This document shows, in pieces, positions 33,306 to 36,178 of a stretch of 64,000 bases of DNA (positions are counted from its first letter, which is position 1; each line of letters begins with the position of its first letter). The DNA is from an uncultured Burkholderiales bacterium. Lineage in GTDB: Bacteria; Pseudomonadota; Gammaproteobacteria; Burkholderiales; Casimicrobiaceae. The notes beneath the pieces were generated by a model. It worked only from the letters and a program-made list of their open reading frames with translations, was not told where the DNA came from and did not search any database. The translations under genes were made by a program, and so were the position numbers. Location: NCBI GenBank assembly GCA_937944385.1, contig CALDYQ010000047.1:61000-124999 (forward strand), written 5' to 3'.

Positions 33306-33698
33306 CTAGGGAGACTGGCGCCGGCCGGTGGCAAGTCCCGAGGCTGGGTCGCGGCTGCTTGACGGCGCACCCGCCGGACATCCGCTGCCTGGGGCAGCGC
33401 CGCCTTCGAGGCCTTCCTCGTTGACCGTGATGTCAGTGCTGCGAGCGGTACCCCCAGCTCCGACCACGTAGCCGCGGTTCGACCCTTGCCTGCGACTTGC
33501 CCCTGGCGCAGGCTTCTCGTCCTCGATCTGCAGAAAGAAGTCGGCGGCGCGTGTGGAGGGCCGGGGGCAGTCGGTGGCTGTGGCACCGCTGTTCCTCGCG
33601 TTGGAACGCGAGGTGTTGATTCCTGCGGCATCGGCGGCGGCCGACAGGGCGAACGCGGAGAAGGCGAGGGTCAGGGTAAGGCGGCTGCGCGAATTCAT
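33306..33698 (-). CDS. Small secreted protein of the sigma factor/S8 protease locus
   Basis: Signal peptide MNSRSRLTLTLAFSAFALSAAADA then GINTSRSNARNSG...; same strand, last of four genes between ispA and the sigma factor. Confidence 0.6.
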   Translation of the reverse strand: MNSRSRLTLTLAFSAFALSAAADAAGINTSRSNARNSGATATDCPRPSTRAADFFLQIEDEKPAPGASRRQGSNRGYVVGAGGTARSTDITVNEEGLEGGAAPGSGCPAGAPSSSRDPASGLATGRRQSP

Positions 33699-33811
33699 GG
33701 CGGTTCCTTTCGGTGAGGCGCGGGCGGCGGTCACCGCTGCCCGTGTGCTGCTTTGTCGTTCGCGGCGAGCGGTTTCTTCACGCCTCGTCGGGAAAAGTCA
33801 GCGATAACGCC

Positions 33812-35041
33812 TCACCAGAGGAGTGCACCGCAGCCGAACACCGGGTCGCGCCCTGGAGGCCCGAGATCCCGAGCGCGAGCGCAGAGCGCACCCAGCGCGA
33901 CGGGTTCGCCGCGGGCGGCGGCCCAGGCGAGGCGTGCGGCCACGATGGGGGCGGCGAAGGAGGTGCCGCTCACATACCGCCCCCCGTCGAGCGGAAGCCA
34001 GAGTTCCACCCCCGGGGCGGCGAGCGCGATGTAGTCGCCCCGGTTGCCCCGGTCGTACGGCCGGTCGGCCGCATCATGGGCGGCCACCGCTATGACGCCG
34101 GGCCATGCCGCCGGGTAGACCGGTGGCGCTTCTGGCCCTGCGTTGCCTGCAGCAGCGACGAGCACGAGCCCGCGGGCGAGCGCGCGCTCGACGATCGCCC
34201 TTTGCACGGTATCCCCCGCCCCGCCAAGCGAGAGATTCACCACCGGAACACGCAAAGCCAGCAGCCGGTCGAGCGCCTGGGCCAGCCCAAGCGTGGAGCC
34301 GCGCAGACGATCGCCGGGGGCGCGCCCGAGAATCGCGATCAGCGTGATGTCTGCCTCGGGCAGCAGACCGCGGAAGCCGCTTCCCGCATCCGCGCGGCAG
34401 GCGAGCAGGCAGAGCACGGCGTCGGCATGCTCGTGACCTGGTGCATCGCCATCGAAGCGCTCGATGCGCAGCGTCCCGGCCAGCGGCAGGTCCTGGCTCG
34501 GCGCGGCATCGATCACGCCAAGCCGTGGCCGTCCGCTCTGGGGCGAGGGCATCGGCGTCGGCAACCGGATCGCGGCTGCGGCGTAGAGCCGCGCGGGCAA
34601 GCCCTGCTGCGGGTCGAGCCAGGCCATACGATCCACGACCGCATCCGGCAGCGCCCGTGCGAGCGCGTCGACCACCGCCGATTCGGCTCCGGGTTCGACC
34701 GCGAATTCGACGAGCGTGAGATCCAGCGCCTCGAGCCGGAATCGGGCCGCCTCGCGGGCCTCGGGCACCCGAGTCGTCTCGACCGTGGCGTTGGCACCCT
34801 CCCTCAGCATGATCACGCGGCCGGGGACGTGGGGCCCGCCGGGGTCGGTCTGTGCGCCGCCCAGTCCTGGCGCGAGCAGACGAAAGAGAATCCCGAGGTC
34901 GAGCGTGACACCGACGCCGGCGCGCGGGGGCGCTGACGGGCGAGGTGCATCCGGTTTGCCTTGCGCCAGTCCGCCCGGGCTTGCGATGGCGAGGCTCAGG
35001 CCGAGCAGGGCAGCGAGTGCCGCAGTCCGACGAGCGCGCAT
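33812..35041 (-). CDS. S8 family (subtilisin-like) serine peptidase
   Basis: Signal peptide; LGVIDAAP (Asp), GHEHADAVLCLL (His), VNLSLGG, VAAAGNAGPEAPPVYPAAWPGVIAVAA (oxyanion Asn), SGTSFAAPIVAARLA (Ser). Confidence 0.9.
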   Translation of the reverse strand: MRARRTAALAALLGLSLAIASPGGLAQGKPDAPRPSAPPRAGVGVTLDLGILFRLLAPGLGGAQTDPGGPHVPGRVIMLREGANATVETTRVPEAREAARFRLEALDLTLVEFAVEPGAESAVVDALARALPDAVVDRMAWLDPQQGLPARLYAAAAIRLPTPMPSPQSGRPRLGVIDAAPSQDLPLAGTLRIERFDGDAPGHEHADAVLCLLACRADAGSGFRGLLPEADITLIAILGRAPGDRLRGSTLGLAQALDRLLALRVPVVNLSLGGAGDTVQRAIVERALARGLVLVAAAGNAGPEAPPVYPAAWPGVIAVAAHDAADRPYDRGNRGDYIALAAPGVELWLPLDGGRYVSGTSFAAPIVAARLAWAAARGEPVALGALCARARDLGPPGRDPVFGCGALLW

Positions 35042-35042
35042 C

Positions 35043-35591
35043 TCACGGCTCGACCGAGACCGCCTCGACGAGGGGCGACGCGCGCAGGCGGGCGAGCGCC
35101 GCCTCGCGGTCCGTCCGGGGCACGCTCACACGCCAGAGCCCGAGTGCGCTCGGCCCGCCGACGAACTCGCCGCCTGCCTCCATGACGAGCCGACCCGCCT
35201 CGGCGAGCGGCACGCCGGGCCGAAAGGCGAGCGTGAGGATGCTGCGCTCGGCCGGTACCGAGACGCCGGGTCGGCCCGACAGCGCCTCGAGCGAGGGCTC
35301 GCCCGCGTCGGACCAGAAGCCGCGCGGCGTGAGGCCGATCACCGCGAGCGCGGCCGCGGCCCCGAGCGCGAAGCCCCAGCCGCCGACGAACCAGCTTGTG
35401 CGGCGCCCGCGGGCTGCCGGTGCGTCGGTGCGTCGCGTTGCGGCTGCCCACTCGCGTTCAGCACGGATGCGCGCCTCGAGTCGCGCCTGCGAGCGCGCGG
35501 GATCGAAAGGCGGACTCGCGGCCCGCAGCATCTCGGCGGCGCGGGCATGCCAGGCGTCGTCACGGTCTGGGAGAGTGGAGCGCTCGTTCAT
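35043..35591 (-). CDS. Putative anti-sigma factor, one TM with protease prodomain-like periplasmic region
   Basis: About 60 aa charged cytoplasmic part, TM WGFALGAAAALAVIGL, C-terminal ILTLAFRPGVPLAEAGRLVMEAGGEFVGGPSALGLWRVSVPRTDREAALARLRASPLVEAVSVEP; between ECF sigma and S8 protease genes. Confidence 0.7.
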   Translation of the reverse strand: MNERSTLPDRDDAWHARAAEMLRAASPPFDPARSQARLEARIRAEREWAAATRRTDAPAARGRRTSWFVGGWGFALGAAAALAVIGLTPRGFWSDAGEPSLEALSGRPGVSVPAERSILTLAFRPGVPLAEAGRLVMEAGGEFVGGPSALGLWRVSVPRTDREAALARLRASPLVEAVSVEP

Positions 35592-35623: not shown

Positions 35624-36178
35624 TCACGCGCTGCGCTCGAGGCAATCCCGAAGCCGCCGCTTGGCGTGATGAACGCGCGTGGCGGCGGTGTTCTCGGGGA
35701 TTGCAAGCACTTCGGCCACCTCGCGCAGCTTGAGCCCATCGACCACGTGCAGCCAGAAGGCATCACGCTGCGGGTCGGGCAGTGCGTCCACACAGTCGGA
35801 CAGGCGCTCGGAGGTCTCGCGGGCGAGCAGCCGCTCGAATGGATTCGGTGTCGTTTCGTCGGCCAACTCGGCGCTGTCCTCTGCGTCGAGCGGATCGGTG
35901 CCGAGCCGGCCGCGGGCCCGCAGCCTGTCGAGCGCCTTGTGGCGGGCGATACCGAAGAGCCAGGTGCGCACGCTCGCGCGGCCCTCGAAGCGCGCCGCCA
36001 GCCGCCAGACGTCGTAGAACGTCTCCACGACCACGTCCTCGGCCTCGCCGACCTCGTCGAGCATGCGATGGACGAAGCGAAACACCGCCGTGGCGTGACG
36101 GTCGTGCAGCGCCGTGAGCGCGCGCTCATCGCCGCGGCCGATGGCCGAAATCAATTCGGCATCGGAGCGCGCCTCCAT
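35624..36178 (-). CDS. ECF-subfamily RNA polymerase sigma factor
   Basis: Region 2 (LHDRHATAVFRFVHRMLDEVGEAEDVVVETFYDVWR...RTWLFGIARHKALDRLR) and region 4 (LPDPQRDAFWLHVVDGLKLREVAEVLAIPENTAATRVHHAKRRLRDCL). Confidence 0.93.
   Translation of the reverse strand: MEARSDAELISAIGRGDERALTALHDRHATAVFRFVHRMLDEVGEAEDVVVETFYDVWRLAARFEGRASVRTWLFGIARHKALDRLRARGRLGTDPLDAEDSAELADETTPNPFERLLARETSERLSDCVDALPDPQRDAFWLHVVDGLKLREVAEVLAIPENTAATRVHHAKRRLRDCLERSA

Follow-up and report, generated by a model that had tools for sequence, protein, structure and literature searches.

An uncultured Burkholderiales bacterium (contig CALDYQ010000047.1) carries, on a stretch of 64,000 nucleotides analysed here (the window), an ECF-type sigma factor gene, an anti-sigma factor gene and the gene of an S8 (subtilase) protease in close succession. 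The C-terminal segment of the anti-sigma factor had been described in the initial annotation as resembling a subtilisin prodomain, which raises two questions: is this domain a true relative of protease prodomains, and what could such a domain do on a membrane anti-sigma factor encoded beside a protease? To our knowledge, the periplasmic input of most ECF anti-sigma factors is unknown. In this cassette the input domain can be recognised, and a neighbouring gene encodes its likely partner; as small soluble modules, the two lend themselves to direct tests of signal reception.

The features of the locus are as follows.

35624..36178, minus strand: ECF-type sigma factor gene, 184 aa (Pfam Sigma70_r2 5.2e-15, Sigma70_r4_2 2.8e-14; TIGR02937 sigma70-ECF 93.2 bits, cut-off 42.9)
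35043..35591, minus strand: anti-sigma factor gene, 182 aa (ATG at 35591, TGA at 35045-35043; gene order shared by orthologues)
35328..35396, minus strand: predicted transmembrane (TM) segment of the anti-sigma factor, approximately residues 66-88 (SWFVGGWGFALGAAAALAVIGLT; from the sequence, an AlphaFold2 (AF2) helix at 73-86 and the aligned TM of relatives)
35046..35249, minus strand: subtilisin-prodomain-like C-terminal domain of the anti-sigma factor, residues 115-182, Fervidolysin_NPro-like (orthologue Pfam scores, AF2, Foldseek, hhalign)
33812..35041, minus strand: S8 (subtilase) protease gene, 409 aa, with a signal-peptide-like N-terminus (Pfam Peptidase_S8 62.5 bits, cut-off 21.8; AF2)
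34610..34831, minus strand: the S8 protease's own prodomain, residues 71-144 (alignment and AF2)
34508..34510, minus strand: catalytic Asp178 codon of the S8 protease (invariant column, 42-row alignment)
34427..34429, minus strand: catalytic His205 codon of the S8 protease (invariant column, 42-row alignment)
34142..34144, minus strand: oxyanion-hole Asn300 codon of the S8 protease (retained in the window copy, gone from more than half of its relatives)
33959..33961, minus strand: catalytic Ser361 codon (SGTS) of the S8 protease (invariant column, 42-row alignment)

The anti-sigma factor is predicted to consist of a short helical cytoplasmic part, a single TM segment and a periplasmic prodomain-like domain. 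The peptide singled out in the initial annotation (35043-35260, minus strand) falls within residues 111-182 and is expected to be periplasmic because it lies after the single predicted TM segment. In its cytoplasmic part, the window protein is without the first half of the usual anti-sigma domain (LLPWxxNGTL / zinc finger) that is present in relatives; it scored 23.9 bits against the NCBIfam anti-sigma model NF052375, under the cut-off of 100, while its orthologues matched zf-HC2 over cut-off. Immediately 3′ of the S8 gene (33306-33734, minus strand) lies a gene for a small predicted exported protein (MNSRSRLTLTLAFSAF...), no homologue of which was found in any locus fetched; a conserved partner for it was likewise not found.

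Identity of the anti-sigma periplasmic domain

Taken alone, the window anti-sigma protein had no Pfam match at E≤10 and no useful match among PDB sequences, and no match to Fervidolysin_NPro-like (PF22148) was found in the window genome. Relatives, present in 20/101 genomes sampled from genus to order and mostly placeable in the same gene order, were more informative. In a 17-sequence alignment the only invariant residues, F123, G146 and P147, all fell within the prodomain-like domain. Scanned singly, 6/17 relatives matched PF22148, four of them over its cut-off of 21 bits (L034, 27.5 bits; L039, 26.6; L035, 25.5; L031, 25.1); Inhibitor_I9 (PF05922) was matched neither by the window protein nor by any of the 17 aligned members. 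When PF22148 was used as the query against 200 genomes of the order, matches were mostly to S8 proteins, together with one anti-sigma factor of this family (L264, 38.4 bits) that sits in a sigma/anti-sigma/S8 cassette of its own.

The fold of the residues after the TM segment, which the initial annotation had proposed as a check, proved to be of prodomain type. In an AF2 model built from a 40-row alignment, residues 116-182 were predicted with pLDDT of approximately 87-98 in the order beta-alpha-beta-beta-alpha-beta, and the top Foldseek match in the PDB was pro-subtilisin E (3whi_B, E 1.3e-3). Propeptide chains were also recovered (2z56_B, TM 0.76; 1scj_B, TM 0.73, by target length), isolated propeptides spanning 0.71-0.76 overall. 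The small size and commonness of the fold keep the Foldseek E-values modest, and fold alone is therefore not decisive; it is the sequence profile that decides. Profile-profile alignment (hhalign) of the domain against the prodomains of cassette S8 proteins gave P = 3.2e-5 with a score of 27.1, compared with a maximum of 12.7 over 30 column-shuffled controls, and the anti-sigma domain profile matched three cassette S8 proteins (E 0.002-0.01).

These data bear on the possibility of convergence, in which a generic ferredoxin-like domain has come to resemble prodomains by chance. Ferredoxin-like folds are common, the Foldseek list also contains ribosomal protein S6 and aspartokinase regulatory (ACT) domains, and the window protein by itself is without a Pfam match, but pro-subtilisin was the first structural match, orthologues exceed the curated PF22148 cut-off with scores of up to 38.4 bits, and the alignment to cassette S8 prodomains lies far above its shuffled controls. 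Convergence is thus very improbable and close to refuted. The resemblance, first noted from the layout of the C-terminal segment, is confirmed to be beyond chance: the anti-sigma factor has, facing the periplasm, a homologue of the subtilisin-type protease prodomain. For the window domain the case rests on family and fold, and it is filed as a divergent homologue rather than as a direct Pfam member.

The S8 protease and the C-terminal tail of the domain

By sequence the downstream protein is an S8 subtilase, matching the Peptidase_S8 profile with its D178/H205/S361 triad intact; Asp, His and Ser were invariant in every S8 protein complete over those sites. Its AF2 model (mean pLDDT 85.9, pTM 0.82) had pro-subtilisins as its best PDB matches and contains a prodomain of its own at residues 71-144, although the first helix of that prodomain is absent from the model. 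A search of the genome contigs with the window S8 protein as query gave no match. The oxyanion-hole Asn was kept in approximately 44 and replaced in approximately 63 of 107 cassette S8 proteins. Subtilases without it (L034, L035, L036, L080, L083, L132 and relatives) have Pro, Ala, Glu, Asp or Arg instead, and many start with a lipobox-like signal. Some cassette S8 proteins have an IPT/TIG domain at the N-terminus (L078, residues 58-135, Pfam TIG 25.7 bits), and similar stretches could be seen by eye in those of L082, L079, L089 and L095.

The presence of a prodomain in cis matters for the suggestion that the anti-sigma domain is a trans-acting prodomain, which would inhibit the cognate S8 protease or assist its folding at the membrane up to the release of the sigma factor. 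Its fold and family are those of inhibitory propeptides, yet the S8 protease already has a prodomain, and the C-terminal tail of the window domain is of the wrong length. The propeptide of BPN′ extends 18 residues past its anchor Leu, ending at the scissile bond, whereas the window domain has only 13 residues past the conserved helix Leu (L169) and stops approximately five residues before the position that brings subtilisin propeptides into the active site. It therefore cannot occupy the active site in the manner of a propeptide without rearrangement, and the same short tail is found in most of its sub-lineage. One large sub-lineage does have an 18-residue tail, equal to that of the BPN′ propeptide with its C-terminus in the active site, and this favours a trans-acting role there. 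Tails were of 13 residues in most cassettes with an Asn-bearing S8 protein and of 18 residues in most with an Asn-less one, an association that is striking by count (Fisher p 2e-13) but that amounts essentially to one clade split, is unsupported by independent pairs and so was rejected as independent evidence. Overall, we consider a trans-acting prodomain unlikely.

Linkage across phyla and exchange of the protease

The cassette of ECF sigma factor, anti-sigma factor and exported S8 protease is conserved across Burkholderiales, Xanthomonadales, Alphaproteobacteria, Nitrospirota and Acidobacteriota. Class- and phylum-level searches, plus a scan of named genomes, yielded 137 distinct domain sequences, with hosts including Dyella, Lysobacter, Massilia, Herbaspirillum and Sphingomonas as well as Nitrospirales and Acidobacteriota metagenome-assembled genomes; a Sphingomonas plasmid carries a trio of the same kind, annotated as a sigma-70 family factor, a zf-HC2 protein and an S8 family peptidase. 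The statement in the initial annotation that the protease is encoded immediately downstream thus holds both in the window, where a single base separates the anti-sigma TGA (35045-35043) from the S8 ATG (35041), and far beyond the window genome. Among 62 domain-bearing loci with an intact downstream side, an S8 gene lay within 3 kb in 49, a C14-like gene was present in six (one of them, L157, doubtful) and seven had neither; an S8 gene was near 3/20 control anti-sigma factors without the domain. The corresponding figure in the named-genome sample was 72/76 loci, although this sample was seeded from the S8-linked subgroup and overlaps the first set, and is not an independent rate. The S8 gene was downstream on the same strand in 106/110 cassettes, the few others being rearranged with the trio retained. 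In three control loci (L162, L167, L173) a divergently transcribed S8 gene adjoins an anti-sigma gene with a different periplasmic domain.

Sigma and S8 distances correlated at 0.87 (mirrortree), indicating that the genes descend together. The partial correlation between the domain and the S8 catalytic domain, given the sigma factor and the anti-sigma domain (ASD), was only 0.10; with the whole operon descending together, mirrortree did not discriminate between docking, inhibition and a sensor without contact. No natural fusion of an anti-sigma factor to S8 was seen; open reading frames labelled as both anti-sigma domain and S8 were rejected as fusions, since they are S8 proteins with a weak match in their own prodomain. 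Sigma/anti-sigma pairs with the prodomain-like domain and without an adjacent protease occur in L086, L090 and L092, those of L090 and L092 being located between dnaJ/dapB-like and carA/carB-like genes. PADLOC, applied with a defence-system reading in mind, gave no match for the sigma or anti-sigma factor and one weak generic match for the subtilase, and that reading was set aside.

At two or more places on the anti-sigma tree the S8 slot is taken by caspase-like C14 proteases (Peptidase_C14, 129-144 bits) with signal-peptide-like N-termini, so that a protease of unrelated fold adjoins the same kind of anti-sigma factor. This exchange fits better with a protease that acts on the anti-sigma factor than with S8-specific inhibition, and it is a further point against a trans-acting prodomain, C14 proteases being without such a propeptide. 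It could also be accommodated if the domain were only a periplasmic sensor fold derived from a protease prodomain and the protease gene one of those controlled by the sigma factor, with no encounter between the two proteins. The 7/62 intact loci without an adjacent protease, which indicate that the domain can work with no protease gene beside it, are also consistent with this, as are the weak domain-S8 partial correlation and the S8 neighbours of control anti-sigma factors. Such an account, however, gives no reason why a protease-prodomain fold should be linked to a protease gene in approximately four-fifths of cases, and we regard it, too, as unlikely.

Coupling of protease to sigma factor, and comparison with known systems

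A sensor or docking role for the domain is the preferred reading, the inhibitor and chaperone versions being weakened. The identity and fold of the domain, its multi-phylum linkage, the intact S8 triad, the protease's own prodomain and the exchange of protease type are direct results; from identity, linkage, conserved catalysis and exchange we infer that the exported protease docks on the prodomain of the anti-sigma factor, and that the anti-sigma factor is then cleaved or destabilised, freeing the sigma factor. Sigma factor, anti-sigma factor and exported S8 protease would accordingly form one regulatory cassette, with the domain as a putative docking or recognition module coupling protease to sigma release, a reading that we hold tentatively and judge to be nearly, if not quite, an even call. 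Weighing against it are the low domain-S8 partial correlation, the seven intact loci with no protease next to the domain and, in the window protein, the missing first half of the anti-sigma domain. The exported protease from the neighbouring gene, once mature or active, would bind the prodomain-like domain and either make the first periplasmic cut in the anti-sigma factor or destabilise it, after which ordinary regulated proteolysis would free the sigma factor. In this way the level or activity of the protease that the cell itself secretes, or of anything occupying it, would be sensed. The arrangement is suggestive of mutual control between the protease and the gene switch, the sigma factor. 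The fuller proposal is of a widespread signalling cassette through which a cell gauges its own secreted protease: the mature enzyme would dock on the homologous anti-sigma prodomain and cut it, freeing the sigma factor, and S8 and caspase-like proteases could stand in for each other as the cutting enzyme. It is possible, but we advance it with less confidence. Should the anti-sigma factor indeed be a target of the protease, the latter would constitute an operon-encoded, subtilase-type site-1 protease, replaced in some lineages by a caspase-like one. Eukaryotes, too, have a subtilase as site-1 protease (S1P).

No description of this cassette was found in the searchable literature; subscription and NC-licensed papers lay outside its scope, and an earlier mention in ECF classifications is possible. 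The closest known counterparts of the anti-sigma domain are the subtilisin-type prodomains (PF22148; pro-subtilisin E, 3whi; Tk-subtilisin propeptide, 2z56), with which the domain shares fold, order of strands and helices, motifs and orthologue profile. It differs from them in being part of a membrane-bound anti-sigma factor and lying in trans to the protease, in having a nearly invariant Gly-Pro after strand 2 and, in the window, in lacking the active-site tail.

In ECF54, sigma genes adjoin subtilase or CHAT genes (PMC8999054), an arrangement similar to the ECF sigma and subtilase genes seen here; however, ECF54 is described without an anti-sigma factor, with the sigma factor itself as the proposed target of control by the protease (PMC8999054), whereas the present cassette has one. 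The output module of Craspase, comprising the CHAT protease Csx29, Csx30 and CASP-sigma (PMC10028731), likewise combines a sigma factor and its inhibitor with a dedicated protease at a single locus, but our cassette is without CRISPR genes, its inhibitor is membrane-bound and its proteases are exported. The Csx30 model (NCBIfam NF041234) gave no match in the window anti-sigma factor and weak matches in 2/17 relatives (best E 0.0035). Regulated proteolysis of an anti-sigma factor is known from RseA-DegS in the sigma-E system of E. coli (PMC8103513), which shares with the cassette a single-pass anti-sigma factor with a periplasmic domain, encoded beside an ECF sigma factor, and an exported serine protease, here the proposed site-1 enzyme. 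DegS is of HtrA type, whereas the cassette has an operon-encoded S8 subtilase together with a prodomain-like periplasmic domain, and its regulated proteolysis is putative. The cassette, then, belongs to neither RseA-DegS nor Csx29-Csx30-CASP-sigma by any tested feature, and these are the two systems that it most resembles in its way of working.
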